Shown here in pieces: positions 8,050 to 20,886 of a stretch of DNA of 22,919 nucleotides (position 1 is the stretch's first letter; each line of letters begins with the position of its first letter). Below the pieces are notes generated by a model. The model did not search any database. It saw only the letters and a list, made by a program, of their open reading frames with translations, and was not told the DNA's origin. Source of the DNA: a virus; the IMG/VR virus record IMGVR_UViG_3300025603_000704, positions 1 through 22,919 of that record. One strand, written 5' to 3'. Position numbers and translations under genes: made by a program.

Positions 8050-9138
8050 TTACCATCCTATTTTTTCCCACGGTACGTCTTTGTCACCAAAGTGTCCGTA
8101 AGTACAATTGTTGCTATAACTATTATAGTTGAATAAATCAAATCTGTCAATGATTCCTTTTGGACTTAGGTCAATTTCGTCACGTATAAATCTTTCGATA
8201 CTGCGATTGTGTCCGTTTGAATCAACGTAAATGCTTGTAGGCTGCTTAATACCAATGGCATAGCTTAGTTGTATATTACACCAATCTGCCATTTCGTCTG
8301 CTACTACATTCTTTGCTAACCATCTTGCCATGTATGCAGCACTACGATCTACTTTTGTAGGATCTTTACCACTAAAGGCGCCGCCGCCATGAGGAGCAAA
8401 ACCGCCGTAAGTATCAACAATAATTTTACGACCTGTAACTCCGGTATCACCATCGGGCCCACCAATAACAAAATTGCCAGTAGGGTTGAGATGCCACACA
8501 GTATTTTCATCAATTAAATCTCCAAGTTCTTCCATTGCAGCTAGTTTACACAAATGTCTTGCTTCTTCTATACAGCCTTCTGAGTGCTGAGTACTTATAA
8601 CAATTTGATCAATGCGTTTGATAACACCTTCACGTCTTGCACCGTTGTACTCAACACTTACTTGACTCTTAGCATCAGGACCTAATACATTGCCACGCTT
8701 TGTTTTTAAATTTTCTAGTATCTTGTGGCTGTAATGAATAGGCGCAGGCATCATACTATGTGTATGATTGCAAGCATAACCAAACATAAGCCCTTGATCA
8801 CCTGCACCAAAGTCGTCTGTACCTAGTGCAATGTCTGCACTTTGTTCATGTATTTCATTATATAACTTTAACTTGTGCCAAGAAAATCCATTCTGATCGT
8901 AGCCAATTTCTTTAACTTTGTTTCGAACAATTTGTTCTACTTGATCTCTAGTTACATTAAAGTTCTTAACTTCGCCTGCTAGTGTAACCATGTTGGTAGT
9001 TACTAGTGTTTCAACTGCTACTCGTGTTGTTGTATCGCCTGCGGCTAATCCAGCATCAACAAGCGCATCAGATATTTGATCTGCTACCTTATCTGGGTGT
9101 CCGTCACTTACTGATTCGCTTGTAAAAATGTGGTTCAT
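8050..9138 (-). CDS. metK: S-adenosylmethionine synthetase
   Basis: The 362-aa protein is a clear MetK, making SAM from methionine and ATP. It shows FTSESVSDGHPDKVADQ at the N-terminus (ATP/methionine site), FGAGDQGLMFGYA (hexapeptide P-loop-like region) and GGGAFSGKDPTKVDRSAAY in the C-terminal domain. Bacterial MetK is about 380-400 residues, so this is a compact form. AAGGA lies 6 nt before the ATG, which overlaps a small upstream ORF by ATGA. Its position directly after queE suggests it feeds SAM to that radical-SAM enzyme and to any phage methyltransferases, although general boosting of host methylation or polyamine supply is also possible. Confidence 0.95.
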   Translation of the reverse strand: MNHIFTSESVSDGHPDKVADQISDALVDAGLAAGDTTTRVAVETLVTTNMVTLAGEVKNFNVTRDQVEQIVRNKVKEIGYDQNGFSWHKLKLYNEIHEQSADIALGTDDFGAGDQGLMFGYACNHTHSMMPAPIHYSHKILENLKTKRGNVLGPDAKSQVSVEYNGARREGVIKRIDQIVISTQHSEGCIEEARHLCKLAAMEELGDLIDENTVWHLNPTGNFVIGGPDGDTGVTGRKIIVDTYGGFAPHGGGAFSGKDPTKVDRSAAYMARWLAKNVVADEMADWCNIQLSYAIGIKQPTSIYVDSNGHNRSIERFIRDEIDLSPKGIIDRFDLFNYNSYSNNCTYGHFGDKDVPWEKIGW

Positions 9139-9245
9139 ATTAGTCCTTTTTGTCTCATCTCATCTGGGTCCATAGGCTTCTTAGCTTGTGCCTTCATAGC
9201 CTTTTCGTGTTGTTCGTTTTTGTATGATTCACGTACCCCATGCAT
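9135..9245 (-). CDS. Possible small ORF between queE and metK, 36 aa
   Basis: A short frame begins at an ATG inside the queE end (9245) and stops at 9135 with an exact ATGA overlap with metK, the coupling style used throughout this window. The product is hydrophilic and helical (MHGVRESYKNEQHEKAMKAQ, then a PMDPDEMRQKGLI tail). The ribosome site before the ATG is weak (CGGAA). Without this ORF a 90-base gap would separate queE and metK, which is unusual here. No function can be assigned. Confidence 0.45.
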   Translation of the reverse strand: MHGVRESYKNEQHEKAMKAQAKKPMDPDEMRQKGLI

Positions 9246-10191
9246 TTCCGAATAAACTGATGTGTAGCCTTGGGGTGAAGCGCCATCCCTTTTCCATGCA
9301 GACTTCTGCCACTTCTTTAACGTTAAGGACATACTCTTCCGAACGTCCCCCAAGCGGCATACAATATACTGGACACTCAACGCCTGCGCCACGGTATGCT
9401 TGCACAGCTCTACCAGCTTCATCAATATCTGAACGATCAGCAACGACAAATTTAAGATACATGTCGCTACCATCAACAGTGGAGTAATTAAGAGCAACGT
9501 TAGGCTTAATAGCATCTTCCCAAGATTCTCCGCTAACGGATAGTTTAGGCGAACAACTCCATGTGACTGTAATTCTATTGCTATCGTTGAGATAGTGGTA
9601 TAAGTCATTATGTAATACTTGTGTAGTGTTTGTTTCAAATGTGACATTTTTTAGATCCTGCATACGTGGATGCTCAAATAGTTCGACATACAATCGTTGC
9701 CACGCCAACAACGGCTCGCCACCTGTCATAATTAAGTGGATGTCTTGTCCGTTATCCATTGTCCACTTGCCTTCTGGAGTAAGGGATAACAAATGTTCAA
9801 CAACTTCTTCAACTTCTGCAAGTTTGTTAAAGTTTTTAAATTCAGGATAGATACTTGCATACGTATCACAACCTGTATGAATAATAGGCAAGTCTGTAAA
9901 CTTTTCGGTCCTTGCAATAATACCATCATCAAGTAAGTCTTTTACTTCTTGATTGTATCTTTGACCATCTGCTTGTTTTTCTGCACGACTAGGTTCATCT
10001 TTACCAAGTCCAAAGTTCATGCAACGAAAGTTACAACCGAAGGTACGTAGGAATACACTAGGCACTCCTACAAACTTACCTTCGCCTTGTACGCTGTAAA
10101 ACGCTTCTGAATATCTTAGTTTCATACTTGACTTTCTGTTTACTGCTTCATGCGATGGATAGCCTTTTTCAAATACTGGAGATTCTGTCAT
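9229..10191 (-). CDS. queE: 7-carboxy-7-deazaguanine synthase (QueE), radical SAM, with split cluster motif
   Basis: QueE converts 6-carboxy-tetrahydropterin to 7-carboxy-7-deazaguanine with SAM and a [4Fe-4S] cluster. The sequence shows FYSVQGEGKFVGVPSVFLRTFGCNFRC (cluster Cys C53 and C57), CDTYAS (C108) which matches the canonical CDTxYA after the third Cys, MTGGEPLL (SAM-binding GGE), FETNTT, and the C-terminal RFTPRLHISLFGN typical of the family. The third Cys is separated from the second by 50 residues rather than 2, an apparent insertion (about 58-107). The 320-aa length exceeds typical bacterial QueE (about 210-240). AGGAG lies 8 nt upstream, and the start overlaps folE by ATGA. Confidence 0.88.
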   Translation of the reverse strand: MTESPVFEKGYPSHEAVNRKSSMKLRYSEAFYSVQGEGKFVGVPSVFLRTFGCNFRCMNFGLGKDEPSRAEKQADGQRYNQEVKDLLDDGIIARTEKFTDLPIIHTGCDTYASIYPEFKNFNKLAEVEEVVEHLLSLTPEGKWTMDNGQDIHLIMTGGEPLLAWQRLYVELFEHPRMQDLKNVTFETNTTQVLHNDLYHYLNDSNRITVTWSCSPKLSVSGESWEDAIKPNVALNYSTVDGSDMYLKFVVADRSDIDEAGRAVQAYRGAGVECPVYCMPLGGRSEEYVLNVKEVAEVCMEKGWRFTPRLHISLFGNAWGT

Positions 10192-10871
10192 CGTGCAAAC
10201 TCCTGTTGCAGTTTAATGTTATCGAAAAACTCTTTCTTTGTGCCCATGTCATCTTTAAATGCACCACGTAGTACAGTTGTTTGTGTTAAACTGCTAGTTG
10301 CCATAATGCCTCTGTTCTCACAACAACCGTGTGTTGCTTGTATATAAACACCTAAGTGTTCTGCATCAGTCGCCGACTGTATTTCACGAGCAATGTCATT
10401 TGCAAGTTCTTCTTGTAGTGTACCGCGTCTAGCACACCACTGTGCAATACGTGTGTACTTAGACAGTCCAATAAGTTTATCTGCTGCAATAATACCAATG
10501 TATGCAACGCCTGCTACTGGCTGGTGATGATGCGAACACATGCTTTTAAGTTCGCTACGTACTACTAGCATGCCTGCATAGCGATCATCGCTATCATTAG
10601 GAAATGCTGTTGCCGCCGGTGCAGGGTCGTATCGTCCTGCCATAATTTCATTGTAGTACATTTTAGCAAGACGCTTTGCTGTGCCTTTACTATTAGGATC
10701 GTTAAACCTATCAATTAATAGTGCGTCTAATACACCTTCAAATGCAATAGATGCTTCGTTGATTAATTCTTCTTTGTCACCAGTCTCTAATACTTCACTG
10801 ATATTGTCACCAGCCCAATGGCGAATGTTTGCTTCTTCAAGCCGGGCTTTGATTTGTACTATTTTGCTCAT
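10188..10871 (-). CDS. folE: GTP cyclohydrolase I
   Basis: FolE opens GTP to 7,8-dihydroneopterin triphosphate, the first step of folate and 7-deazaguanine synthesis. The 227-aa protein has the zinc-site motif MCSHHHQPVAG (C112, H115) and ATHGCCENRG (H181, C183), plus IGLSKYTRIAQWCARRGTLQEELANDIA, the conserved core. E. coli FolE has CEHH, so the Glu is Ser here, which is not a zinc ligand. The ribosome site GGAG lies 6 nt before the ATG, a consensus-type promoter is at 10927-10955, and queE follows with an ATGA overlap. The setting with queE points to 7-deazaguanine supply rather than folate. Confidence 0.94.
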   Translation of the reverse strand: MSKIVQIKARLEEANIRHWAGDNISEVLETGDKEELINEASIAFEGVLDALLIDRFNDPNSKGTAKRLAKMYYNEIMAGRYDPAPAATAFPNDSDDRYAGMLVVRSELKSMCSHHHQPVAGVAYIGIIAADKLIGLSKYTRIAQWCARRGTLQEELANDIAREIQSATDAEHLGVYIQATHGCCENRGIMATSSLTQTTVLRGAFKDDMGTKKEFFDNIKLQQEFAR

Positions 10872-10906
10872 TTATTTCTCCGAGTTATAGACGAGGATGT
10901 CATGTA

Positions 10907-10937
10907 AGTAGTATACTCATAATACAAGTATACTACT
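10907..10937. promoter_or_regulatory. Candidate operator palindrome at the folE promoter
   Basis: A perfect 11-bp inverted repeat AGTAGTATACT / AGTATACTACT with a 9-bp spacer covers the -10 box and expected start of the folE promoter. Because transcription should begin within it, it is more likely a dimer binding site in DNA than an RNA hairpin. Confidence 0.55.
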
Positions 10938-10955
10938 CTATTTAGGTTTTGTCAA
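10927..10955 (-). promoter_or_regulatory. Sigma70-type promoter for folE-queE-metK
   Basis: The minus strand has TTGACA (10950-10955), a 17-bp spacer and TATACT (10927-10932). It lies 56 nt upstream of folE and overlaps the end of the 69-aa gene at the -35. Confidence 0.78.
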
Positions 10956-11161
10956 GTATTAAAATATTTTTCTAACATATCAATACGATCAGTTGCATGA
11001 GCCATCTTGTCAAGTTCTTCTTGAATGGCTTCTACAATGTCACTATGCTCGCCAATACCAGTTGCATTGTTCATATACACCATGATATTAGTCTTTGCTC
11101 TTTCGAGCTCACCTTCGGCATGCATACGTGCTGCTTTGACTAATTGTTCTCTCAAGTTCAT
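10952..11161 (-). CDS. Conserved hypothetical phage protein, 69 aa
   Basis: The protein is all-helical and hydrophilic: MNLREQLVKAARMHAEGELE, then TNIMVYMNNATGIGEHSDIVEAIQEELDKMA. The NN..GIGEHSDI.EAI..ELDKMA pattern recurs in T4-like marine phages as a hypothetical protein. The Gly-Ile-Gly-Glu-His segment is the most conserved-looking part and may be a metal or turn motif. A purine-rich ribosome site (AAGGAAAAGGAA) precedes the ATG. Function unknown. Confidence 0.72.
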   Translation of the reverse strand: MNLREQLVKAARMHAEGELERAKTNIMVYMNNATGIGEHSDIVEAIQEELDKMAHATDRIDMLEKYFNT

Positions 11162-11180
11162 TTCCTTTTCCTTATTGTTA

Positions 11181-11720
11181 TTATTTGTATTCAGCTACAT
11201 TTTCCCAAGGGTAAACTAACCACACATCTTCTTCTGCTTTGTTAATTTCGTGACAAGTATATCGTACGTCACTAAAGTCGCTTGCTAAGTTTTCCGTTAG
11301 TGTAGCAAAACGAACATTCTGGTCCCAAACTGTTCCCCAACTTTTATCCATTGGCAAACAACTTTTAGGCCAGTCTTCTTTGATCCAATTGAAAGTAGCA
11401 CCAGTATCGTTGATATCATCTACAATAAGGATATTCTTGCGTAAAGGACCTGCTGTAGCACGTGGTTCACTTTCGTAACCAAATGCATCTTCAGCCATCC
11501 AAAGATTACTTTCGCTTTCACTGTCATCATCACGCAAGCTTACTTTAAGTGCTTCGCAACGTATGCCAGTCATATTACTAATAATAGTAGCAGGCACATT
11601 ACCCCCGCGTGTAAGACCTACAATGTAATCAGGACGCCAGTTATCAGCATACATTTGGTTAACAATGCTTACGCACATACGTTCAATGTCGGTCCAGCTA
11701 TAATAATGTTTCTTAATCAT
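11181..11720 (-). CDS. Purine-type phosphoribosyltransferase (xanthine/guanine PRTase-like)
   Basis: The 179-aa protein has the PRPP-binding motif ILIVDDINDTGATF (about residues 97-110), an N-terminal PDYIVGLTRGGNVPATIISN strand-loop (PPi loop) and a C-terminal WLVYPWE, which is typical of xanthine-guanine PRTases. Such enzymes convert free guanine, xanthine or hypoxanthine to the nucleotide. The Ser/Asp/Glu-rich loop (DDDSESESN) sits where the flexible hood loop lies in the family. It is coupled by ATGA to the HTH-like gene before it. Base specificity cannot be read from the sequence. In this phage it could recycle guanine released during DNA base exchange. Confidence 0.85.
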   Translation of the reverse strand: MIKKHYYSWTDIERMCVSIVNQMYADNWRPDYIVGLTRGGNVPATIISNMTGIRCEALKVSLRDDDSESESNLWMAEDAFGYESEPRATAGPLRKNILIVDDINDTGATFNWIKEDWPKSCLPMDKSWGTVWDQNVRFATLTENLASDFSDVRYTCHEINKAEEDVWLVYPWENVAEYK

Positions 11721-11905
11721 TTTCCCGCCTTTGAGTCTTTCTCTGCTTTAGTTAATTTATTATTCCAAGTGTTGTTACTAATACCAAGTTCTGAAGCCAT
11801 AGCTTTAGTTTTACCTTTAGTAACTTCTCCGCCCTTAGCTAAAAACTCTGCTTTCATTCGTTCCAGTTCATCGTCTTTAGGCTTTGCGTCGTGATTCATG
11901 CTCAT
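11717..11905 (-). CDS. Small HTH-like protein, 62 aa
   Basis: The ATG at 11905 overlaps the preceding stop as ATGA, so it is preferred over a second in-frame ATG at 11899. The protein is charged, with a helix ELERMKAEFLAKGGEVTKGK, then TKAMASELGISNNTWNNKLTKAE, which reads as a helix-turn-helix recognition pattern. Related small proteins with AKGG.VTK are common in T4-like marine phages. It might bind DNA as a small regulator, but no partner or target is known. Confidence 0.65.
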   Translation of the reverse strand: MSMNHDAKPKDDELERMKAEFLAKGGEVTKGKTKAMASELGISNNTWNNKLTKAEKDSKAGK

Positions 11906-12297
11906 GTGTTATCTTCTTTCTTGCCTTTGTAATCTTGTTCTACTAATTTGTATATAGTTTGAAAGTTTTCGTATGCCTTAGCAAGTGCAGGGTATTCCTC
12001 ACACATGTTATTAACAGTGTATATATCAGGTAATGCTTCTTTCCATAATGTAGGCACAATTTTAATGTTGTCCCAATCAAAACTAATCTGATCATCTGAA
12101 GAAATAGTATAACCAGTTATACCACTTATAGTAGTAATACTATCTAAATTAGGAGTACTAATAACAATAACACTACTGTTAGTATTAGTTGATACATTAA
12201 AAGTATAATCGGACCCTGTGTCAGTAATAAAAGCCTCGTCAGGATAATCGCTTAAATCAAGTGTAATAGTGTCAATCGCTTTGTTTGATTGTGTCAT
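11902..12297 (-). CDS. Hypothetical phage protein with conserved C-terminal helical module, 131 aa
   Basis: The N-terminal part (about residues 1-85) is beta-rich and full of Ser, Thr, Asp and Asn, like a small virion or fibre-type domain. The C-terminal part, LWKEALPDIYTVNNMCEEYP followed by ALAKAYENFQTIYKLVEQDYKGK, is a helical module seen at the ends of several short marine-phage proteins. The gene overlaps the end of the glycosyltransferase gene by 26 nt. Function unknown; the two-part make-up suggests a module shared between small phage proteins. Confidence 0.65.
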   Translation of the reverse strand: MTQSNKAIDTITLDLSDYPDEAFITDTGSDYTFNVSTNTNSSVIVISTPNLDSITTISGITGYTISSDDQISFDWDNIKIVPTLWKEALPDIYTVNNMCEEYPALAKAYENFQTIYKLVEQDYKGKKEDNT

Positions 12298-13348
12298 ACA
12301 ATGCTGCTCCGCTAAAGAATTCTTTGTTTAGTTTTATACGTTGCTTCTCTAAGGACACTTGTAAATCGGTATAGTTATCCATATAATTTACAATTTGTGC
12401 AACTACTTTGTCTCTATGATACAAGTATGCGTCATAGTTCTCAGTCCATTCACTAGGATATAAAAACTCAGGTAATGCCATTTCACTATAGCTTAGTCTA
12501 TCAGGCACCATAGGAATTGCATCAACTAATGCTCCTTCGTACCAACTAATGCCAAGTGTTTCTTGTAAGTTAGCACTAAACACCATCTTAGCTTCGCCTA
12601 ACAAGTTATGATACTCGTTTTTACTAAGTTCGTAGTCTTGACAAACAACAAACTCGTATTGTGGCAATCGCTCTGCAAGGTCTCTAAAAATATCAACTTG
12701 CTTCTCAGGCGCAACTCTATGCGGAAACAAAATTAAATCACGTTTTTGCATACCTTTGTATTGCTGCAAACTGTTGTGCAAATATTCCATAGGCCATCCG
12801 ACCCGCTTAATTGTTTCAGTTTCTCGTACATCATCGTCATCTTCGGTCCATTCTAGAACTCCTTTAGCAAACAAATCTATGTGGAATTCACTTGCATAAA
12901 AATTATGATCGTAGCAGCTAAACATACTATGTTCTGCACTGCGCACCCAAGGTTTATCACCAATAAGTCTTCCTAAGAAGTCTTGCGGATCATAACTGCC
13001 AGCATGCCACAAGCCGCCGATACGAATATCGACGCCTAGTAGTTCTGCCATATATTTAAGTTGTATAACTGTAGGGTTCCATGCATCAGTGTATAAAAAG
13101 TAGTCGCCGTCTTTAACTTGTCCGTTACAAAACATTTCGCCGATAGTTTCTAGTTGTTTACTCTTGTATACATTAGTACCGCCAAAGTTGAGGAACGCCC
13201 CAGGCGTAGTTGCCTGAGGAGTCTCCCCACCACTAATGACCACAACATTTTCATCAATAGCATGTTGCAGTTGTTTAGGGAGATACTCCTTCCACTGTTT
13301 AGTGTAACGAGTGTCTACTGCTTCGATATCTACAATGAAAATAGTCAT
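12272..13348 (-). CDS. GT-B fold glycosyltransferase (GT4-like)
   Basis: The 358-aa protein has a divergent N-terminal Rossmann half (about 1-190) and a C-terminal nucleotide-sugar half with LILFPHRVAPEKQVDIF (R211, E214, K215), LGEAKMVFSANLQETLGISWYEGALVD with an E-x7-E pair (E263, E271), and PMVPDRLSYSEM. This is the pattern of GT4 retaining glycosyltransferases. An acidic DDDD loop (about 169-173) lies between the halves. AAGGA lies 8 nt before the ATG. The acceptor is unknown: it could be phage DNA, a virion protein or a host surface glycan. No T4-type DNA-glucosyltransferase motif is evident to me. Confidence 0.75.
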   Translation of the reverse strand: MTIFIVDIEAVDTRYTKQWKEYLPKQLQHAIDENVVVISGGETPQATTPGAFLNFGGTNVYKSKQLETIGEMFCNGQVKDGDYFLYTDAWNPTVIQLKYMAELLGVDIRIGGLWHAGSYDPQDFLGRLIGDKPWVRSAEHSMFSCYDHNFYASEFHIDLFAKGVLEWTEDDDDVRETETIKRVGWPMEYLHNSLQQYKGMQKRDLILFPHRVAPEKQVDIFRDLAERLPQYEFVVCQDYELSKNEYHNLLGEAKMVFSANLQETLGISWYEGALVDAIPMVPDRLSYSEMALPEFLYPSEWTENYDAYLYHRDKVVAQIVNYMDNYTDLQVSLEKQRIKLNKEFFSGAALYDTIKQSD

Positions 13349-13353
13349 AGTTG

Positions 13354-13590
13354 TTATCCTTTAGTGTTGTTGTTAAAACGAGGCTTGCGCTCCCGTTGAA
13401 CAAAGTCTTTGCCGCCGTTGCGAGCTTTTGCTCGTACCCAACCTTGGTACTTTTGATAGGCAATCCAATTAGGATCTTCCTTCTTATAAAGTGCTCTTTC
13501 ATCAAACACTTTGCCTTCAAAGCGACAATAATCACGATACTGATCGAGATCGTTGAACACCTTATTTACTGCTGGATTAGCAATTGTCAT
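13354..13590 (-). CDS. Conserved hypothetical phage protein, 78 aa
   Basis: The ATG at 13590 is chosen over the upstream in-frame start at 13659, because GAGGA lies 9 nt before it and the longer form would sit inside the QueD-like gene. It begins MTIANPAVNKVFNDLDQYRD, then YCRFEGKVFDERALYKKEDPNW, and ends in a strongly basic tail (KARNGGKDFVQRERKPRF). It follows the QueD-like gene by 16 nt, a pairing that I recall from other T4-like marine phages. The basic tail suggests nucleic-acid contact, but the function is unknown. Confidence 0.72.
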   Translation of the reverse strand: MTIANPAVNKVFNDLDQYRDYCRFEGKVFDERALYKKEDPNWIAYQKYQGWVRAKARNGGKDFVQRERKPRFNNNTKG

Positions 13591-13606
13591 AATGTAAATC
13601 CTCTTG

Positions 13607-14071
13607 TTATGACTTGGGGTAATATATTGAACAGCCGTTTTCGCCATCTTCAGCGACATCTATCTCTACAAAGCGGCAGGGGTACTTTGCGGAAATTTCT
13701 TCGTACAAGTCATCTGCAATCATCTCACATGACTTGTGATTCAGTTGTATTACATCCTGTGCGTACAACCGTTCCATCCAGCGTTTAAACTGAATGAATT
13801 CTATGTCGCGATCGTTGTGAAACACTTCGATGCGAACTTTAAAGTGGAAAATATGACGATGAGGAATGCCGAGGAATGATACATCGTCCCACTCGCCTGT
13901 TGCTAATTTCGGGTCTGTGTCTGCACCCGGATACATATGCACCCCCTCTTTAGAGAACGTGACCCAGATACTACGATCTGCTTTATTCATTGCGTTTTCT
14001 GTTGCCATTTTTGCGTCTTCTTCCTTCATTCTGCGTCCCATATAATTATGATACGATTCGTGTTGTGTCAT
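13607..14071 (-). CDS. QueD / 6-pyruvoyl-tetrahydropterin synthase-like T-fold protein
   Basis: The 154-aa protein has the T-fold order of QueD: a first His in FSKEGVHMYPG (H45), HRHIFHFKVRIEV (H71, H73, matching the HGH zinc motif), the strand-helix DIEFIQFKRWMERLY, KSCEMIADDLYEEI (matching TSENLA..I), and VEIDVAEDGENGC near the end (E141 or E144 for the catalytic Glu). QueD turns dihydroneopterin triphosphate into 6-carboxy-tetrahydropterin, the QueE substrate. The Cys that normally sits 4 residues before HxH is absent, so activity may differ. The start at 14071 falls at the predicted transcription start. A later ATG at 14008 is an alternative, but the N-terminus is conserved in the 78-aa paralogue, which supports 14071. 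Confidence 0.6.
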   Translation of the reverse strand: MTQHESYHNYMGRRMKEEDAKMATENAMNKADRSIWVTFSKEGVHMYPGADTDPKLATGEWDDVSFLGIPHRHIFHFKVRIEVFHNDRDIEFIQFKRWMERLYAQDVIQLNHKSCEMIADDLYEEISAKYPCRFVEIDVAEDGENGCSIYYPKS

Positions 14072-14077
14072 AGTATT

Positions 14078-14106
14078 ATTATACTTTCTTTAGTTAGTGT
14101 TGTCAA
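14078..14106 (-). promoter_or_regulatory. Sigma70-type promoter for the QueD-like gene
   Basis: The minus strand has TTGACA (14101-14106), a 17-bp spacer and TATAAT (14078-14083). It is embedded in the 3' end of the homing-endonuclease gene. The predicted start of transcription is within a base or two of the ATG at 14071. Confidence 0.8.
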
Positions 14107-14767
14107 GTGTTTTTTTTGAACAGTTGTCAAAATGCCATCTTTTCATAGGACTATTGCCACCTGTTTTACCACAGTGCGGGCAAGTTACAGTATCTTGTGC
14201 AATACCTTTTAGAGCATCTGAACGTTTTTGATTAGATACAGGATCTTGTGTTTTACCCTGCTTTGCTTTAGAAATCTTTAGTTTAGTTGCTTCACTATGA
14301 TGCTTACCTTCCATACCAGATTTTACAGAACCATATCGTTCAATCTTTGTCTGAATAATCTTTCGTTTAGTTTCTTCGCTTAACACTTTACCTGTATGTG
14401 CTTCAGATAGACGCTGTCTGTGTTCTTTTGATTTCGTTTTGCCTTTATGCGAAGGAGGACGACAGTCTGTGAGTATATTCATAAGTATTCCAGACTCGTC
14501 AATACGCCTACCATACTTTGCAATAAGTGTTTCTTCTAAAGTGTAAGCAGATTCTTCGTCCATATCTTTCTGTATGATTTCAATAGCAGGTATTAAACCG
14601 TTGTCAAGTATACTTTTGATTTTCATATCCTTCATATGATTATCTGTAGAACGACCATTCTTTACAGCACGGAGATGATCCAAATGCCTTTTGTTGTCCC
14701 ACTTACCTTTACCTATATAAAACGGTTCCATTGTTTCTGGGTCTTTATAGCAATAAACATAATACAT
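14090..14767 (-). CDS. GIY-YIG homing endonuclease with NUMOD3 repeats
   Basis: The N-terminus MYYVYCYKDPETMEPFYIGKG is the GIY-YIG nuclease core, followed by an Arg/His-containing helix (KRHLDHLRAVKNG) and an ALEETLI-like helix with the catalytic Glu (TLEETLIAKYG). Two NUMOD3-type DNA-binding segments (SHKGKTKSKEHRQRLSEAHTG and GKHHSEATKLKISKAKQGK) and a C-terminal zinc-finger CPHCG...HFDNC follow, as in T4 Seg-type free-standing endonucleases. The ATG at 14767 is used; a TTG five codons earlier is possible, and neither has a ribosome site. It is probably a mobile gene that spreads by cutting homologous phage DNA. It sits between two ORFs that share an N-terminus. Confidence 0.88.
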   Translation of the reverse strand: MYYVYCYKDPETMEPFYIGKGKWDNKRHLDHLRAVKNGRSTDNHMKDMKIKSILDNGLIPAIEIIQKDMDEESAYTLEETLIAKYGRRIDESGILMNILTDCRPPSHKGKTKSKEHRQRLSEAHTGKVLSEETKRKIIQTKIERYGSVKSGMEGKHHSEATKLKISKAKQGKTQDPVSNQKRSDALKGIAQDTVTCPHCGKTGGNSPMKRWHFDNCSKKTLDNTN

Positions 14768-14812
14768 ATGTTTATTTAGCAAAACTTACCCTTATTATTC
14801 TAAAACTGACTC

Positions 14813-15049
14813 TTATAATCCTAAACCTGCAAGGAATGCTCGTAGCTTCTTACCTGTATCGTGTTCGTCGCCTTCACGATAACCATCTTCCATATAACGA
14901 AGAAACTCTTGATGCGTCATACCTGTGTCCTGCACTTTCTTGCCGTCGTATTCTTTACGAAAGGTTACCCAGACACTTCTGCTTGCTTCTGTCATAGTTC
15001 TTTCTTCTTTCAGTTTTCGGGAAATATAATTATGATAACGTTCTTGCAT
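14813..15049 (-). CDS. Short paralogue of the QueD-like N-terminus, 78 aa
   Basis: Residues 5-16 (YHNYISRKLKEE) and 24-32 (SVWVTFRKE) match the start of the QueD-like protein at 13607-14071 (YHNYMGRRMKEE, SIWVTFSKE), and the upstream promoters are also similar. After residue 32 the sequences part: this one continues through MTHQEFLRYMEDGYREGDEH to KKLRAFLAGLGL, with none of the zinc-site histidines of the T-fold. It may be a partial duplication fused to other sequence, or a small regulator sharing the leader. An internal ATG at residue 19, preceded by a GAAGAAAG site, is an alternative start. Confidence 0.6.
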   Translation of the reverse strand: MQERYHNYISRKLKEERTMTEASRSVWVTFRKEYDGKKVQDTGMTHQEFLRYMEDGYREGDEHDTGKKLRAFLAGLGL

Positions 15050-15055
15050 GTTAAT

Positions 15056-15084
15056 ACTATAACACTAATCAATGACTTTGTCAA
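15056..15084 (-). promoter_or_regulatory. Sigma70-type promoter for the 78-aa paralogue
   Basis: The minus strand has TTGACA (15079-15084), a 17-bp spacer and TATAGT (15056-15061) preceded by TGT. The predicted start falls on the ATG at 15049. It overlaps the stop of the 175-aa gene. Confidence 0.72.
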
Positions 15085-15592
15085 GTCCATAATCTTTCCA
15101 ATCAGTATAAACTTTACGATCCATTAAATTATGAACACTGTGGCACCATATCCCGCTATTTGTGTCACCCCATGTGTTGTCATCTAATTTAAGAGTCGCA
15201 TTATAATTAAACTGTTTAATATATGGAAGTTTGACACTAATCATACTAATAAATGTGTTATACTCGTCGTATCCTGATTCTAACACACCGTGACTATATT
15301 CAACACCAAAATCAAGTGTACACCAATAACCTTCTTTTAGTAATGGGAGAATCATATCATCCCACGCTTTCCAGTCGTCGGAATCTTCTGGAAAGTTTAA
15401 TCCAGGAGTAAAGCTCTGACTAGTCCCGAAGTATAAGTGTTTAATGCCATGCTCATCAGCACGTTTCTTAATTTCATCCGCAGGCTGTATACCTACAACA
15501 AACAGAGTTTGTTCACCATACATTGCAGTATGTTCAACTTCTGTTCCGATAAAGTATATTACATTTTGTCTTTCGTCGGTATTTAATCCCAT
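15065..15592 (-). CDS. Conserved phage protein of unknown function, 175 aa (paralogue of 17339-17788)
   Basis: The protein reads VIYFIGTEVEHTAMYGEQTL then FVVGIQPADEI, HLYFGTSQSFTPG, NFPEDSDDWKAWDDMILPLL, WCTLDFGVEYSHGVLE and a C-terminal LPYIKQFNYNATLKLDDNTW segment with GIWCHSVHNLMD. This is a recurrent protein of T4-like marine phages without a known function. The regular strands and the FGTSQSF loop suggest a nucleotide- or sugar-binding alpha/beta fold, which is a guess. The start overlaps the end of the alcohol-dehydrogenase-like gene by 10 nt. A second, chimeric copy lies at 17339-17788. Confidence 0.72.
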   Translation of the reverse strand: MGLNTDERQNVIYFIGTEVEHTAMYGEQTLFVVGIQPADEIKKRADEHGIKHLYFGTSQSFTPGLNFPEDSDDWKAWDDMILPLLKEGYWCTLDFGVEYSHGVLESGYDEYNTFISMISVKLPYIKQFNYNATLKLDDNTWGDTNSGIWCHSVHNLMDRKVYTDWKDYGLDKVID

Positions 15593-16482
15593 TTTATATA
15601 GCCTCTGCTGTAGTTGTCGGGTCTGTTTAAGCCATCTTCAAAAGCTTGTTGCCATTCTGTAGTTCTTGAATAACCTTTAGTCCAAAAGTCATCGATATCT
15701 ACTTGATTGTTAGTAATCATACTCTCTGCAAGTTCCATTGACTTAATAAAGCAATCTGCTCGCGGACTAGGAAATACAATAGTGCAAGCCTTCCAAAGTA
15801 AGTTACCAAAGTCTGATGTTAATTGTTTTTGCACTCCTAGTATTAGCAATGCTTCGTTATTAAACGCTACATCATCCAATATATTAGTTCTACTACTCAG
15901 ATCAATAACAACATCGTAAGCGCCGCTATACGACTGTTTTAGCGTGTCTCCCCACAGGTGTTTGTTATAACTGCCAACAACATCAACTGTTTCAAACGTA
16001 AGCCCAAATCTTTCAAGACTGTTATAAGCAATCCACGCTAAAAATCCACTTCCTAAAATTAAACACCTTTTATTAGGACCGACTCTAGTTTTAATAGCAT
16101 CCAACGGTTGCATTACTACATTAATACCACACGCAACAGGCTCCAGTATATATTTTGGATCTGCACTAGGAACAACTACAAATTCATTGTGTCTACAGTT
16201 GTAGTAGTCTGCATAAGCAGGCTCACCTCGGGTAGCTACAATGTCGCCAACCTTAACATTTTTAATCAACTCGCCAACTTGTGTAACTTCTCCTAGACCT
16301 TCGTGGCCTTGCATTTCTTTAGGAAGTGGACCAAAGTTGCCTACCATCATTTCTATATCACTGCGGCATACACCTGTCATTAGTGCTTTAACTTCTATCT
16401 CATCAGACTTGTGTGCAGGCTTAGACCATTCGATTTCCTCGAAGCTACCTTTGCCGTCTGTATATAATAATTTAACTTTCAT
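15583..16482 (-). CDS. Zinc-type alcohol dehydrogenase-like oxidoreductase (MDR family)
   Basis: The start at 16482 is set by an ATGA overlap with the preceding gene and a GAGG ribosome site; an upstream in-frame start at 16536 would lie inside that gene. The 299-aa protein has a GroES-like catalytic domain (LMTGVCRSDIEMM, then GHEGLGEVTQVGE, with the metal-site Cys and GHE), a loop with NCRHNEFVVVP, and a Rossmann domain with LILGSGFLAWIA. MDR enzymes oxidise alcohols or sugars with NAD(P). Family lengths are about 340-360, and the structural-zinc four-Cys loop is not seen, so it is a compact form. It is likely to act with the Gfo/Idh/MocA gene just before it on a sugar or polyol. Confidence 0.8.
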   Translation of the reverse strand: MKVKLLYTDGKGSFEEIEWSKPAHKSDEIEVKALMTGVCRSDIEMMVGNFGPLPKEMQGHEGLGEVTQVGELIKNVKVGDIVATRGEPAYADYYNCRHNEFVVVPSADPKYILEPVACGINVVMQPLDAIKTRVGPNKRCLILGSGFLAWIAYNSLERFGLTFETVDVVGSYNKHLWGDTLKQSYSGAYDVVIDLSSRTNILDDVAFNNEALLILGVQKQLTSDFGNLLWKACTIVFPSPRADCFIKSMELAESMITNNQVDIDDFWTKGYSRTTEWQQAFEDGLNRPDNYSRGYIKWD

Positions 16483-17342
16483 AGTGCCTCGATCTGTTTG
16501 TGAATCCAAATATCTTGTCTTACTTGTTGCTGCCAAAAATTATCATTGTCCACGTTATCAATCGCATCCTTTATCATATTATGATATGCTTCTTCAGGAC
16601 ACCATCCTAGTTCTATTGTAGTATCATTAATAGTAACACAACTTTCTTCTGTTGTCAAGTCTCTCCAGTTTGCATGCACCCGCCACCTTTCACCAAACGA
16701 CATTTCAACTTTATCGTCTACATCGTATGTTCCGTTGTAGTTAATAGTGCCGTAATCTGTACTATCGATGTTCTGCAAAGTCCATTGCTGTTCGCTAGTT
16801 TTCTTAGTAGCAGATGTGCTATACCAATACGGATTTAACGCAATGTAAAGGCTTAATAAGTGAGGCACTAGGTCTCTGCTAACTCCACCGTATGCGAGTT
16901 CTTTAGTAGTAAACCAACTGCCAGGATGCGGAATACAATTCTTTCTAATCCACTTAATATCAATGCTATTTGATTGCGCTGCGAGAGTTTGCATTTCACC
17001 GATGTTATCTCTCCACATATTATTCTTTACCATCATAATACGTGTGTCAGGATATTGACTTAATATGTCTATCCATTCTTTAGAGTTCTTAAATCCTGGC
17101 TTTTCTACAAATACAATTTTACTATATGGCGCAACCTGTTGTGTAAGTTGTGCATGAGTAAAATTAGGTGTGCATATGTTTACAGTATCGAAAAAGCCAT
17201 GCGCCACTAAAGCATCTTCTACTCTTGAAAAGTCTGCGTTCTTATCTGGGTTAGTATCAACAGTTATAACTTCAGCGTCTAATTGTGTTAAGACGCTTTT
17301 ATAAAGCTCACCAATGCCCATTCCTATTATAAGACTTTTCAT
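16479..17342 (-). CDS. Gfo/Idh/MocA-family NAD(P)-dependent oxidoreductase
   Basis: The 287-aa protein has an N-terminal Rossmann fold (SLIIGMGIGELYKSVL, then EVITVDTNPDKNADF), the family signature VNICTPNFTHAQL and IVFVEKPG (Lys of the EKP motif), and a C-terminal substrate domain with PHPGSWFTTKELAYGGVSRD, in which GG..RDL.PH matches the active-site GG.l.D.g.H region. Such enzymes oxidise or reduce sugars and inositols. It overlaps the genes on both sides by ATGA, so it is in one operon with the MDR enzyme. Substrate unknown. It may build an unusual sugar for virion or DNA decoration, or alter host surface glycans. Confidence 0.83.
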   Translation of the reverse strand: MKSLIIGMGIGELYKSVLTQLDAEVITVDTNPDKNADFSRVEDALVAHGFFDTVNICTPNFTHAQLTQQVAPYSKIVFVEKPGFKNSKEWIDILSQYPDTRIMMVKNNMWRDNIGEMQTLAAQSNSIDIKWIRKNCIPHPGSWFTTKELAYGGVSRDLVPHLLSLYIALNPYWYSTSATKKTSEQQWTLQNIDSTDYGTINYNGTYDVDDKVEMSFGERWRVHANWRDLTTEESCVTINDTTIELGWCPEEAYHNMIKDAIDNVDNDNFWQQQVRQDIWIHKQIEAL

Positions 17343-17788
17343 TCTAAACCTTTTTGTACTAAGTATGCATTAATACGATGCATTTCGTCTTTTAGATAAA
17401 GTTTCATAGTTTTCATTCTACGAACTTCGTCGGTTACATATAAGTTATCATATTCAATTAGTCCTGATTCTAAAAATGCTTCTGCAAGTGTAATAGGAAT
17501 ATCTAAACTACAAATTTTACCTGCTGTTAAGAATGCCTTGATCATATTCTCCCAAGGCGTCCATTGATCCGCATCTTCTGGAAAGTTTGTACCGGGATTA
17601 AAACTGTGATTGGCACCAAAGAAGATGTGTCCGCACTGTTCTTGGTCATAATGCTTTTGTATAACATCACAAGGTTGTACGCCTGTAACAAACAACGTCT
17701 TCATTCCAAATGCAGGAGTTTTTTCAACTTCTACACCTGTAAAAAAGATGATGTCGTTTGCTTCGCCTGTGTTGTAATCACGTTTCAT
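17339..17788 (-). CDS. Chimeric protein: 175-aa-type N-terminus fused to a DUF465-like C-terminal module
   Basis: The ATG at 17788 has GGAG 6 nt upstream and follows the stop of the nuclease-like gene, so it is preferred over a TTG at 17806. Residues about 10-105 (IIFFTGVEVEKTPAFG, then FVTGVQP, IFFGANHSFNPGTNFPEDAD, LDIPITLAEAFLESG) are related to the protein at 15065-15592. The last 32 residues (VTDEVRRMKTMKLYLKDEMH, then RINAYLVQKGLE) are nearly identical to the end of the 69-aa protein at 18386-18595. The usual C-terminal half of the first family is missing and has been replaced. The DNA is also about 85 percent identical there (see the repeat entries). It looks like a recombination product that is still open and coupled to the next gene by ATGA. 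Confidence 0.72.
   Translation of the reverse strand: MKRDYNTGEANDIIFFTGVEVEKTPAFGMKTLFVTGVQPCDVIQKHYDQEQCGHIFFGANHSFNPGTNFPEDADQWTPWENMIKAFLTAGKICSLDIPITLAEAFLESGLIEYDNLYVTDEVRRMKTMKLYLKDEMHRINAYLVQKGLE
17341..17441 (-). repeat. 101-bp dispersed direct repeat, copy A (DUF465-like module)
   Basis: This stretch aligns without gaps to 18388-18488; I count about 15 mismatches by eye. The core from the CGATGCATTTCGTC stretch to CTACGAAC differs at one base in about 50. Both copies encode the C-terminus of their gene in the same frame. Confidence 0.8.
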
Positions 17789-17789
17789 C

Positions 17790-18386
17790 TTACGCTCCAA
17801 ACTCAAAAAGTCGGTTGTTTGTATTAGTTGAAACTTTTTTTATATGTTCCATTGCACCTGGTGTAATACGATACTGATATTGTCCGCGTTCTTGTTTTTC
17901 AAAATAGCTCCAGTGATCATCACCTCGAATATATTTAGGCTTATGCTCATGCTCTACTAGAGCATAATTGTCAAGTACTGCCTGACCGTACTCCCATGCT
18001 GCTTTAAGTTTAGATTGTATTTCGTTACATGTAAAATCATAAACTTTTGCTTCAGTGACTACGTTGTCACCAGTAAGAATGTTCTCGTCATATTCAACAC
18101 GGTATTGCCGTTGGATCTTATCTCTAATATTGCTATATTCCCAAGGAGTATTTATAATGTCAGCTGACAGCATTGCGCCTACTGTATGACCACTTGTACT
18201 ACTCCGCAACCGACTTTTTATTTCAAGTCCATACTTGGGAAGATCTATACCTTTTCCTCGATTAACTTTGTAACCTTTATCTTCAAGATCGTCTTCGATC
18301 CACCTTCCGATGTTGCCATGATCTTGCGTCATCGGAATAACTGTTCCGGGGATTATTGCACTATTAAGTGATATTACTTTTACCAT
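17790..18386 (-). CDS. Putative PD-(D/E)XK nuclease, 198 aa
   Basis: The N-terminal half reads GNIGRWIEDDLEDKGYKV, then NRGKGIDLPKYGLEIKSRLR. The D48...E55-I-K57 arrangement in a strand-turn-strand is the active-site pattern of restriction-type PD-(D/E)XK nucleases, and E31 lies on the preceding helix as in that fold. It is followed by STSGHTVGAM and DKIQRQYRVEYDENIL. T4-like marine phages have related proteins of unknown function. The start overlaps the DUF465-like stop (TAATG). With a 7-deazaguanine pathway nearby, a nuclease that cuts unmodified host DNA is attractive but unproved. Confidence 0.55.
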   Translation of the reverse strand: MVKVISLNSAIIPGTVIPMTQDHGNIGRWIEDDLEDKGYKVNRGKGIDLPKYGLEIKSRLRSSTSGHTVGAMLSADIINTPWEYSNIRDKIQRQYRVEYDENILTGDNVVTEAKVYDFTCNEIQSKLKAAWEYGQAVLDNYALVEHEHKPKYIRGDDHWSYFEKQERGQYQYRITPGAMEHIKKVSTNTNNRLFEFGA

Positions 18387-18595
18387 TATTCCAGTCCTTT
18401 TTGTATTAGATAACTATTAATTCGATGCATTTCGTCTTTTAAATAAAGTTTCATAGTTTTCATTCTACGAACCTCCTCAGTTACGTATGCATTATTATAC
18501 AACGATTCTATCTCTTCGTCAAGCTCTCTGTGCTTACGCTTTAATTCGTCGTAGTGTGCGCGGAGTTTATCTTCGACTTCATCATAGTTGCTCAT
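18386..18595 (-). CDS. DUF465/YdcH-like small coiled-coil protein, 69 aa
   Basis: The protein reads MSNYDEVEDKLRAHYDELKR, then KHRELDEEIESLY, a short loop (NNAYVTEE) and VRRMKTMKLYLKDEMHRINS. The KHRELDEEI...LK..KLYLKDEM pattern is that of DUF465 (YdcH/SlyX-like) helical-hairpin proteins, short coiled coils of unknown function. GAGGA lies about 8 nt before the ATG, which overlaps the dpdA-like stop by 14 nt. The C-terminal helix is shared with the gene at 17339-17788. Confidence 0.78.
   Translation of the reverse strand: MSNYDEVEDKLRAHYDELKRKHRELDEEIESLYNNAYVTEEVRRMKTMKLYLKDEMHRINSYLIQKGLE
18388..18488 (-). repeat. 101-bp dispersed direct repeat, copy B (DUF465-like module)
   Basis: This is the partner of 17341-17441. 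In this copy the segment is the natural second helix of a complete DUF465-like protein, so it is the likely donor. Confidence 0.8.
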
Positions 18596-20141
18596 CCTGG
18601 AGTTCCTCTAATTTAGTTTCATCTAAAGTTTCTTGATCTTCGACTTCTTCAGGCTCTTCTATATCAAACAATGCATTAAAGTGTGTACTAGAGTTCACAG
18701 ACTTCTTACCTACTGCACCGCGTGTGCCAGGAATCTGCATCCATAACCTACTATTGTCTTCGACTATCTTGTTTGCTTCTTCTCTAGTAGTAGCAGCAAA
18801 AACAGCATCAATAACATCGCCAACAAATAGTTGCTCATGCTTTTCATTTACTAACATTGAAGGAACTTTGCCTGCATCGTATTGACGATTTGCTTCTTGC
18901 ACAGAGTTTAAATGCATCCATACATTATGTGCCATTAAGATTGCATAGCTAAAGCTATCCCAGGAAGTTTTGCCTTCCTTACCGATCCTGTTTAGATCAC
19001 CTGGTGCATAAATGCAAACATCTTTTACAGTAGTATGTTCCATTACAGGACTAGTAGCAAAGTTTTTGTGAATACCATCTTGTACTACTGCATCCTTAAA
19101 TAATCTAGTATCTTGCGAATACTTTTTGTCATCCATTGCTGCTGCCATTCGATAAGACCATTTGCCACGATCTTCGATTTCAGTCTCAGTATAAACTTGA
19201 CCATTTGCAGTTGCAAGGAAAGGACTAGCACAATCAAAGCTAACAGTAAACTTAGGATTATGATACTTGCGTACAGCACGTTGAATGTCAGTTAACACTA
19301 ATGCCCACTCTAATTTACTAGTACCTAAGAAGTGCATCCAGTCATGTAAGCCTTCTTCCAATAATCCGTCAAAGCGCAATGCAACTAGACGTTTTAGAAC
19401 TAAGTGGACATCACACATGTTTTGTCCGCCCATTCCCCAACCATTAAAATGATTGTCTGGATATATGGCAGGGTCGCAATACTTCTTCATACGATCATAC
19501 CAATCGTCTGCGTCAGTATGATTCTCGCCTTGTAGCACATTTAAGAATTTGCAGTTGCCATTACGATTGTTAATAAAATAATCATTATTAATTTCTGTAG
19601 CTCGACATGCTTCTTCGTATGTGCTAATTCCTGTAGCTTTTTGACCTTCTGGACTACGAGCAACCCATGCTGGAATATCTAAACACATTCCATAATCCAT
19701 TAAAGCATCCATCCAAGTTAAAACTTGCTTACGCTTTTTCATTGCAGCAGGACAATTCGGATCTTTCCAATCGCCGGGCCACTTGCCTTTACCAATCTGG
19801 AAACCGCCTGAATCGCCTAGTACAAAACTTTTGCCATCACGTGGACGAGTTCTAAACATTTCTTCTCGGTCATCTTGTTTGTTCAAGTCGAGATTAGCAT
19901 GTCCTGCAGAGTACAAGCACCACTTGTAATATAACAGTGGGCTTGTAGGATCTAAGTAATTAATACTTTCTACATCATTTGTAAAGTTTGTAGGCAATCT
20001 GGATGGTTCGATGTACGGGAATCGTTTTCTTTGATACCCGATAAATGCGGAGTAAAAACCAGATGTTGCTGGTAAAAACAAGGCATAATCTTTTTGTGTT
20101 GCTGTTAAGTCTGTATTCATGCTCTCCGCCGGTCCATCCAT
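18582..20141 (-). CDS. dpdA: DpdA-like DNA/tRNA-guanine transglycosylase
   Basis: The protein (519 aa from the ATG at 20141, immediately after the clamp stop; a second ATG at 20120 is possible) has the transglycosylase barrel motifs: GDSGGFQ (109-115; the Asp acts on the base), FLNVLQGEN (199-206), FNGWGMGGQ (232-240, matching the GyaiGG motif), MHFLGTSK and SFDCASPF with the likely nucleophile D303. Bacterial Tgt exchanges tRNA guanine for preQ1. DpdA homologues do this in DNA with preQ0-type bases. No CxCxxC..H zinc-site cluster is seen at the C-terminus, and the acidic tail (EEPEEVEDQE) is unusual. With folE, queE and the QueD-like gene in the window, exchange into phage DNA is the best reading; tRNA as target is not excluded. 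Confidence 0.8.
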   Translation of the reverse strand: MDGPAESMNTDLTATQKDYALFLPATSGFYSAFIGYQRKRFPYIEPSRLPTNFTNDVESINYLDPTSPLLYYKWCLYSAGHANLDLNKQDDREEMFRTRPRDGKSFVLGDSGGFQIGKGKWPGDWKDPNCPAAMKKRKQVLTWMDALMDYGMCLDIPAWVARSPEGQKATGISTYEEACRATEINNDYFINNRNGNCKFLNVLQGENHTDADDWYDRMKKYCDPAIYPDNHFNGWGMGGQNMCDVHLVLKRLVALRFDGLLEEGLHDWMHFLGTSKLEWALVLTDIQRAVRKYHNPKFTVSFDCASPFLATANGQVYTETEIEDRGKWSYRMAAAMDDKKYSQDTRLFKDAVVQDGIHKNFATSPVMEHTTVKDVCIYAPGDLNRIGKEGKTSWDSFSYAILMAHNVWMHLNSVQEANRQYDAGKVPSMLVNEKHEQLFVGDVIDAVFAATTREEANKIVEDNSRLWMQIPGTRGAVGKKSVNSSTHFNALFDIEEPEEVEDQETLDETKLEELQDEQL

Positions 20142-20142
20142 A

Positions 20143-20886
20143 TTACTTGCTCTGCGCTGGTAGAATATAATCGTATGTTGCCATACCTGAATCAACTGCA
20201 ATCTTCATTGCACCTTGATCGCTAATGCTCATAGTAATATCACCGCTCAGATTCAAAACAGCTTGTACTGCTGCTACGGGCCAACTCCAAGTATGCTGCA
20301 ATGTACCTGCTACTGCATTTTGGAATACAAACTCGCCTGCGTGTGTACTTGCATCGCCGAAGCTAAACACTAAGTCACTTACACCAGCAGTTGCTTTGGT
20401 AGTAACATTAAATGTAGGCTCTTCGGTATGTGCCGCACTCATTAACTTCATACGTCCGATACTAGCAACACTTGGCTTAAATTCTACAGCCCATGCAGCA
20501 CCTTTAAATGTAACATTTTTTAACTTCTCTTCGATAATTGCTTTGTTCATAAAGCGATAATCATTTTCAAAGTCACCTGCGTTGTTTTCAAAGTGAATAT
20601 GCGTTGGCATAGTTTCGCCATTACGTTCTGCTGTAATTACATCAATCTTAGCATCTTTCTGATACTCGGGATTTTTCAAATGCAATGCAAGTTTGTCTAA
20701 GTTAGGCATACCAAATGTGCCAACAAACTCAGTAACTGGTGTGTGGGTAGTTGCAGATAAGATAACACTCCTATCCTCTGCCATTGAATTAACACTAGTA
20801 GTACCATCTTCCGATGTGACTTTGACTAGTGGTAGGAAACCTAGTGCATGTGTGTGTGCTACTACGTCTTGTAAGATATCTTTCAT
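20143..20886 (-). CDS. 45: gp45-like DNA sliding clamp
   Basis: The 247-aa protein resembles marine T4-like clamps: a central strand-helix NPEYQKDAKIDVITAERNG, a VTEFVGTFGMPNLDKLALHL segment in the place of the gp45 domain-1 core, and a C-terminus of GDITMSISDQGAMKI then AVDSGMATYDYILPAQSK that fits the end of a clamp domain. T4 gp45 is 228 residues and forms a trimer that holds the polymerase and, in T4, activates late transcription. GGAG lies 7 nt before the ATG, a sigma70-type promoter is at 20911-20939, and the polymerase gene is nearby. Sequence similarity to T4 gp45 is weak by eye, so some doubt remains. Confidence 0.72.
   Translation of the reverse strand: MKDILQDVVAHTHALGFLPLVKVTSEDGTTSVNSMAEDRSVILSATTHTPVTEFVGTFGMPNLDKLALHLKNPEYQKDAKIDVITAERNGETMPTHIHFENNAGDFENDYRFMNKAIIEEKLKNVTFKGAAWAVEFKPSVASIGRMKLMSAAHTEEPTFNVTTKATAGVSDLVFSFGDASTHAGEFVFQNAVAGTLQHTWSWPVAAVQAVLNLSGDITMSISDQGAMKIAVDSGMATYDYILPAQSK

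Follow-up and report, generated by a model that had tools for sequence, protein, structure and literature searches.

Deazaguanine bases in DNA are a known anti-restriction device. The viral sequence IMGVR_UViG_3300025603_000704 raises the question of which base, made by which route, enters the DNA of a phage whose deazaguanine genes in this record do not include QueC. The whole IMG/VR virus record, a linear fragment of 22,919 bases, was analyzed and is referred to here as the window. It encodes FolE, QueE, a DpdA-type guanine transglycosylase and a QueD-like protein (QL), together with a GT-B glycosyltransferase (GT) and a member of an orphan family (F15065). An earlier note, made from the sequence of the window, had proposed a phage 7-deazaguanine pathway with a transglycosylase acting on phage DNA; fold, catalytic residues and gene linkage all support this core. 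The phage very probably swaps guanine in its DNA for a 7-deazaguanine, with DNA as the target suggested by gene context. Judging by its sequence and distribution, QL probably replaces QueC and uses 7-carboxy-7-deazaguanine (CDG) as its substrate, and GT and F15065 most likely help to decorate the inserted base, or its precursor, further. We assign a probability of roughly 0.6 to the scheme as a whole: a QueC-less deazaguanine module in which QL would act on CDG, DpdA would perform the exchange, and GT and F15065 would serve a further step.

Gene content of the window

Read along the minus strand, the window holds a family-B DNA polymerase truncated at its 5' end, then a nucleotide-sugar epimerase, a clamp-like protein and a TGT-fold transglycosylase, followed by two oxidoreductases, F15065, QL, GT, a phosphoribosyltransferase, FolE, QueE and S-adenosylmethionine synthetase (MetK). 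The genes of the proposed module, each with the evidence for its assignment, are:

18582..20141, minus strand: DpdA-type guanine transglycosylase of the TGT fold, 519 amino acids (AlphaFold model, Foldseek, hhalign)
15065..15592, minus strand: F15065, orphan family, 175 amino acids (locus linkage, AF2 model)
13607..14071, minus strand: QL, QueD-like T-fold protein, candidate CDG-processing enzyme, DpdL-like (phrog_17812, function unknown, 3.4e-32)
12272..13348, minus strand: GT-B glycosyltransferase with an EX7E motif (family Pfam matches, PDB profiles, linkage)
11181..11720, minus strand: xanthine/guanine phosphoribosyltransferase-like protein (Pfam Pribosyltran, 3.1e-11)
10188..10871, minus strand: FolE, GTP cyclohydrolase I (Pfam GTP_cyclohydroI PF01227, 7.3e-38)
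9229..10191, minus strand: QueE, 7-carboxy-7-deazaguanine synthase, radical SAM (phrog_2076, 1.4e-49)

FolE, QueE and the DpdA-like protein were called at these positions and on one common strand by the earlier note, and all three calls are confirmed, the first two by the matches above and by the invariant cluster cysteines of QueE, and the third by an AlphaFold model that matches TGT and DpdA structures. QueC is missing from the 22,919-base record, as had been reported. The gene set grows by the glycosyltransferase, F15065 and the phosphoribosyltransferase, which that reading had overlooked. FolE scores 130.2 bits against a Pfam cut-off of 27, and the NCBIfam FolE models remain below their cut-offs. 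Five NCBIfam QueE models match 9229-10191 (1e-7 to 1e-11, all under cut-off), and C53, C57, C108 and the GE, TGG-x-P and S-x-K motif residues are invariant in 14 aligned sequences. The window QueE has 50 residues separating its second cluster cysteine from its third; this spacing is 35-50 in 13 of the 14 aligned phage QueE and 2 in the remaining one. The phosphoribosyltransferase also matches the NCBIfam xanthine phosphoribosyltransferase model (1.1e-12, below cut-off).

The transglycosylase

Searches of Pfam, PHROG, NCBIfam and PDB sequences gave no match for the DpdA-like protein, and Pfam TGT is touched by one of 18 family members (E 0.031). Profile searches of the PDB yielded chance-level matches only for DpdA, QL and F15065 alike. 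Structure prediction from 25 sequences (window and IMG/VR) gave an AlphaFold model of good quality scores (pLDDT 86.3, pTM 0.86), for which all 50 PDB chains among the Foldseek matches listed are TGT or DpdA at probability 1.00; the DNA preQ0 insertase DpdA (7ui4) is at rank 45 of the 50. A second structural comparison (VIA) gave Z 18.3 over 302 residues. The catalytic aspartates D110 and D303, in DSGGFQ and FDCxxP, are invariant in 25 of 25 aligned rows, and hhalign pairs the DSGGFQ and FDC motifs of this family with those of E. coli TGT. The CxCxxC zinc motif, present in E. coli TGT, is absent from all aligned family rows (18/18 and 25/25) and from 12 other DpdA-type sequences, one of which was trimmed to 290 residues. 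By hhalign the best match is DpdA2 of phage nt-1 and its relatives (E 4e-6). Weaker matches came from the other DpdA types of phages (0.0016 and 0.0024), from E. coli TGT (0.0018) and from 9g DpdA (0.36), and unrelated controls gave 0.18-0.63.

We conclude that 18582-20141 is a member of the TGT/DpdA superfamily related to DpdA2. The DpdA likeness named in the earlier note stands, and by profile the closeness is specifically to DpdA2. A tRNA-specific TGT identity, which the earlier note had named as a result that would refute its proposal, was considered and rejected on the missing zinc motif. DNA as the target is suggested by two features of context, synteny with a DNA polymerase and DpdA2 as the closest profile.

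Among named phages, tblastn with the window DpdA matched the PA5oct group, Phosso and Vibrio phage 2.275.O (identities of 37%, 32% and 29% for PA5oct, Phosso and 2.275.O), for a total of 13 records; nt-1 was not among the matches listed. The window DpdA groups with PA5oct, Phosso and 2.275.O. Megablast with the whole window found no phage match. The window DNA polymerase (21976-22848) is nearest to those of Phosso, the PA5oct group and Atu_ph07 (43-47%), within the best 15 of 425 phage records, which also include 2.275.O; among these matches the jumbo phages Phosso and PA5oct appear to be its nearest relatives. On the T4-like character named in the earlier note, the analysis covered the polymerase, with these matches as the outcome. 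PA5oct and 2.275.O both show synteny of DNA polymerase with DpdA.

Two known systems invite comparison. Phage nt-1 likewise carries a TGT-related transglycosylase, with a catalytic DSGG motif and no CxCxxC, in a FolE/QueD/QueE pathway; unlike the window, it encodes QueC, a PTPS-like gene is annotated in it, and QL was not seen there. The available part of PMC6884629 describes the nt-1 genes as a dG+/preQ0 cluster with DpdA2. PA5oct encodes homologous DpdA, GT, QL, QueE and F15065 and has the same polymerase-clamp-DpdA order as the window. Its deazaguanine synthesis and incorporation system is named in the accessible text of PMC7824862 without GT, QL or F15065 as parts. As far as these two partly available sources go, deazaguanine modification in this lineage had therefore been predicted before. 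Among the literature matches listed, we recognized none that ties deazaguanine DNA to a glycosyltransferase or to F15065 and found no exchange of QL for QueC.

Two further putative transglycosylase types occur in QL phages (L005, L006, L008, L010, L011 and L013), one in RHph_I1_18, Ahp1, Bakedbeans and D479, the other in phiST and MA9V-3. They match each other by hhalign at 2.7e-14, and DN[SG]-type motifs, noted by eye, suggest their role.

QL and the distribution of QueC

The earlier note had counted 13607-14071 as the QueD of the pathway. The shared T-fold stands (hhalign gave E 2.6e-5 against phage QueD and no better than 0.044 in the other comparisons), and the identification as QueD does not. 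The window QL has no PTPS match, Pfam PTPS is touched by one of 35 QL members (E 0.17), and the QueD catalytic residues are missing. Across 35 rows, H45, H71, H73, H85, R88, E91, S114-C115-E116 and E141 are invariant. H45, H71 and H73 align with the three zinc histidines of E. coli QueD, and the C-terminal Glu also has its counterpart there. The site of the QueD catalytic Cys is not Cys in six QL aligned with seven QueD, nor in any of the 35 rows. Asp/Asn-His directly precedes SCE in 8 of the 35, including the window (Asn-His), and there is no conserved Asp-His pair. Specific to QL is the invariant His-x2-Arg-x2-Glu formed by H85, R88 and E91, in a stretch unlike QueD. A PTPS-family QueD is encoded at a separate site in 10 of 11 named QL phages and in 9 of 18 large IMG/VR records. 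QL was rejected as a QueD on the missing catalytic Cys and on the separate true QueD in relatives.

QL and QueC rarely meet. QL is found in 12 of 13 records searched for it (11 named phages and the window), the exception being 2.275.O, and 2.275.O alone among them has a full-length QueC (E 1.7e-51, positions 2-207). None of the 11 named QL phages and none of the 18 large IMG/VR records, which are possibly incomplete, has one, and of 315 loci examined, 260 carry QL, none with QueC at E<1e-5. Phages of the DpdA2 type divide in like manner: QueC occurs in nt-1 and pf16, in neither of which QL was seen, and QL without a full-length QueC occurs in ACP17, X1 and BUCT-ZZ01. The simplest reading of this distribution is that QL takes the post-QueE step of QueC. 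DpdL, which Cui et al. reportedly described in 2023, is said to be a QueD paralogue and a 7-carboxy-7-deazaguanine decarboxylase that follows QueE and gives 7-deazaguanine without QueC. QL would parallel DpdL in following QueE without QueC, and the two are likened here by description only. By this analogy QL would most likely, and most simply, be a CDG decarboxylase giving 7-deazaguanine.

The preQ0 route favored by the earlier note is thus not sustained, since QL-bearing relatives lack full-length QueC and QL is not QueD. The alternative it offered, a pathway ending at another base such as carboxy-deazaguanine, comes closer than preQ0. In the portion of PMC6884629 available, DpdA and DpdA2 phages use the preQ0 route, and a phage without only QueC could carry a CDG modification.

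Linkage across relatives

Scans of IMG/VR with QL, DpdA, GT and F15065 added 266 further loci, taken as the best 80 of 592-594 confirmed matches per query (or all 50). Linkage was counted over loci no shorter than 20,300 bases, with a single locus for each near-identical group; the four sets overlap. QueD was counted within the same stretch.

QL-anchored, 16 loci: GT 16, DpdA 15, F15065 15, FolE 15, QueE 14, phosphoribosyltransferase 15, clamp-like protein 16, QueD 2, epimerase 13, GFO/IDH/MocA oxidoreductase 1, alcohol dehydrogenase-like oxidoreductase 1, MetK 1
DpdA-anchored, 14 loci: F15065, QL, GT and FolE 14 each, QueE 11, phosphoribosyltransferase 12, clamp-like protein 14, QueD 1, epimerase 5, GFO/IDH/MocA oxidoreductase 4, alcohol dehydrogenase-like oxidoreductase 4, MetK 0
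GT-anchored, 13 loci: DpdA, F15065, QL, FolE and QueE 13 each, phosphoribosyltransferase 13, clamp-like protein 13, QueD 0, epimerase 11, GFO/IDH/MocA oxidoreductase 1, alcohol dehydrogenase-like oxidoreductase 1, MetK 0
F15065-anchored, 17 loci: DpdA, QL, GT and FolE 17 each, QueE 11, phosphoribosyltransferase 9, clamp-like protein 16, QueD 3, epimerase 4, GFO/IDH/MocA oxidoreductase 15, alcohol dehydrogenase-like oxidoreductase 15, MetK 6

The commonest order, DpdA-F15065-QL-GT-phosphoribosyltransferase-FolE-QueE, occurs in 33 loci (duplicates not yet removed). Other orders are QueD-FolE-F15065-DpdA2-GT-QL-QueE in ACP17 and DpdA-GT-QL-QueE in PA5oct. The GT family is present in 6 of the 13 records searched, window included, and F15065 in 3. 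The spread of QL and GT among these records, together with the other gene orders, indicates that QL accompanies several DpdA types and GT a subset of them. No open reading frame combining two module profiles was found (loci up to L294). Representative rows were chosen for alignments A5-A11; alignment A12 is A5 minus ACP17, L032 and the second window copy, and A13 is A7 minus three named-phage rows plus ten IMG/VR rows.

Glycosyltransferase and F15065

Glycos_transf_1 (PF00534) is matched by 14 of 18 GT family members (best 8e-12), the window member having no match, and all three PDB profile matches are glycosyltransferases (E 0.04-0.29). E263 and E271 of the EX7E motif are invariant in a 5-row alignment, and only E271 in an 18-row alignment. 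On this retaining-GT motif and the domain matches of its family, 12272-13348 is assigned as a GT-B glycosyltransferase. In T4-type DNA glycosylation a GT-B type enzyme acts on hydroxymethylcytosine (5hmC). The window likewise has a GT-B enzyme beside a base-modification pathway, an analogy only, as the T4 target is 5hmC and the one proposed here a deazaguanine; no hydroxymethylase was found in the subset of window proteins scanned.

F15065 of the window has no notable match in Pfam, PHROG or NCBIfam, and PHROG matches of other members are at 0.006 or above. Its AF2 model (pLDDT 89.8, pTM 0.85) may resemble a reduced QueE-like alpha/beta half-barrel without the cluster cysteines. VIA placed it against three QueE chains at Z 6.3, 6.1 and 5.8 (123-126 of 175 residues), not above unrelated rows, the top row being an anti-sigma factor complex (Z 6.5). 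Foldseek found no PDB chain at E<=0.001 and, in a viral library, one match at that threshold, a 132-amino-acid ACP17 protein taken as a homologue. A homology of F15065 to QueE, prompted by likeness in strand order and motifs, found no support in sequence profiles (hhalign against QueE, no signal), and the structural match is middling. We treat the structural link as a lead from the model: F15065 is perhaps a cluster-less QueE relative.

As constant extra partners of the module, GT and F15065 suggest that the swapped base receives a further decoration, possibly a sugar. A glycosylated 7-deazaguanine in DNA, in which DpdA would insert the QueC-less base, GT would add a sugar and F15065 would perhaps be a base-binding partner, is a tentative proposal that we consider somewhat unlikely. 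The sugar would be attached via a carboxylate or another handle at C7, or directly to the electron-rich C7 to form a C-glycoside.

Proposed pathway and alternatives

In the scheme we prefer, FolE and QueE would convert GTP to CDG, drawing on a QueD that the host or another part of the phage genome would provide and leaving QueC unused. QL would remove the carboxylate of CDG to give 7-deazaguanine, which the DpdA-type transglycosylase would exchange for guanine in phage DNA. The phosphoribosyltransferase would salvage the released guanine to GMP, refilling the GTP pool, and GT and F15065 would add to, or control, the base. CDG as the QL substrate, the guanine salvage and the roles of GT and F15065 are steps that we infer.

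Two of the alternatives concern what QL does. If QL were a working QueD, with QueC from the host or another locus, preQ0 or a derivative would be inserted; the common T-fold, the QueC that many hosts are said to have and the fragmentary state of the window are compatible with this. It is nevertheless very unlikely given the lost Cys and Asp-His pair, the true QueD beside QL in 10 of 11 named phages and the absence of QL from the QueC-bearing 2.275.O, nt-1 and pf16. QL might instead bind or activate CDG, so that the final base is dCDG, or else CDG as an amide or ester such as a glycosyl ester that GT would make. The carboxylate would then be the acceptor for GT, the invariant H85, R88 and E91 lie in a stretch unlike QueD, and of the 12 QL-bearing records 6, counting the window, have the GT family. 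Yet six named phages have QL without this GT family, so that the QL step cannot depend on GT, and the reported precedent, DpdL, is said to be a decarboxylase; we regard this version as unlikely, if less so than a working QueD. That the pathway boosts queuosine-type tRNA modification in host or phage would agree with a TGT fold common to tRNA enzymes. It is highly improbable, as QL relatives without full-length QueC have no complete preQ0/preQ1 route, and as the missing CxCxxC, the polymerase synteny in PA5oct and 2.275.O and the DpdA2 profile all point away from tRNA.

Another explanation leaves the base aside and has GT, the epimerase and the oxidoreductases serve surface-polysaccharide remodelling as mere neighbours of the deazaguanine genes. 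The available part of PMC7824862 assigns phage glycosyltransferase clusters (cyanophages are discussed) to polysaccharide synthesis, and the epimerase and both oxidoreductases are patchy across loci. GT, however, is as constant as QL and DpdA, is the single member of its family in the core, and lies inside the deazaguanine group in ACP17, X1, BUCT-ZZ01, PA5oct and Phosso, where gene order or DpdA type differs. We judge this the strongest of the alternatives, and still improbable.

Several observations weigh against the preferred scheme. Plain 7-deazaguanine offers no obvious C7 oxygen or nitrogen handle for GT; with no usual sugar acceptor, GT would act on an earlier carboxylated form, form a C-glycoside or have another role. 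QueD was not found in the window, in an overlapping 34.7 kb record (100% identity) or in Vibrio D479. D479 has a partial QueC-like match (positions 133-201, 32.8 bits) over the family cut-off, and X1 one under it. Six of the 18 large records have QueC-like matches at E<=0.001, three over cut-off, the longest stretch listed covering at most 74 of 210 positions, and three other loci from QL records (D479, G010 and G008) have weak QueC profile matches of 25-28 bits. Fragmentary records cannot prove the absence of QueC or QueD, and the IMG/VR sampling is biased to close relatives. In PA5oct, F15065 lies ~28 kb from DpdA and no FolE was found in the 16 kb examined; Phosso has GT and QL, no F15065, and DpdA far from both. 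The gene set is therefore separable.

Accessory genes and mobile insertions

The remaining genes next to the module are:

20883..21638, minus strand: nucleotide-sugar epimerase, accessory candidate (Pfam Epimerase, 5.2e-20)
20143..20886, minus strand: clamp-like protein between DNA polymerase and DpdA (phrog_12062, unknown function, 3.1e-29)
16479..17342, minus strand: GFO/IDH/MocA oxidoreductase, accessory candidate (Pfam, 7.7e-6)
15583..16536, minus strand: zinc alcohol dehydrogenase-like oxidoreductase, accessory candidate (Pfam ADH_N, 2e-10)
8050..9138, minus strand: MetK, sporadic (Pfam C-terminal domain, 2.5e-57)

The clamp-like protein has relatives in Phosso and PA5oct, where the annotation reads sliding clamp and structural protein, respectively. 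Among 50 loci picked for holding DpdA, QL, GT and F15065, so that those four counts are by construction, the sugar-related genes are patchy (epimerase 24, a cytidylyltransferase-like gene noted by eye 25, both oxidoreductases 21). MetK could possibly supply S-adenosylmethionine for QueE. Downstream of the module, window 7243-7647 encodes a short 2OG-Fe(II) oxygenase-like protein (PF13759, 1.7e-6).

Comparison with the relative L032 (98% identity over 14951-17431 and 18388-21742, 89% over 9780-13983) revealed two extra segments in the window, ~13984-14950 and 17432-18387, from which we conclude that the module has been invaded by mobile elements, its core reading frames still open. The first segment holds a GIY-YIG/NUMOD3 homing endonuclease between F15065 and QL (14090-14782 and 14813-15049), and, alongside it, a partial second copy of the beginning of QL (45 nt, 73%). 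Window 17339-18595 contains a truncated second F15065 copy of another subtype, followed by an open reading frame at 17790-18386 whose GLEIKSR motif, by eye, suggests a PD-(D/E)xK nuclease; it has no Pfam match. Segment 17432-18387 holds most of this second F15065 and the reading frame, and is flanked by 112-nt repeats of 83% identity. At 22837-22917 (minus strand) the polymerase frame opens with an intein C-terminus-like FFFANGHLVHN, then TDSVYF (by eye), and PA5oct has a Hef-like homing endonuclease between polymerase pieces.

Implications

The module is widespread among viruses, does without QueC and has a glycosyltransferase and an orphan protein as its constant partners, a combination that suggests a possibly new DNA chemistry. 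The routes described in the available part of PMC6884629 pass through preQ0, unlike this QueC-less module. The scheme proposes a testable function for two families of unknown role, phrog_17812 and F15065, in isolated phages (Phosso, the PA5oct group and ACP17). If true, sugar-decorated deazaguanine in DNA would be, to our knowledge, a new chemistry.

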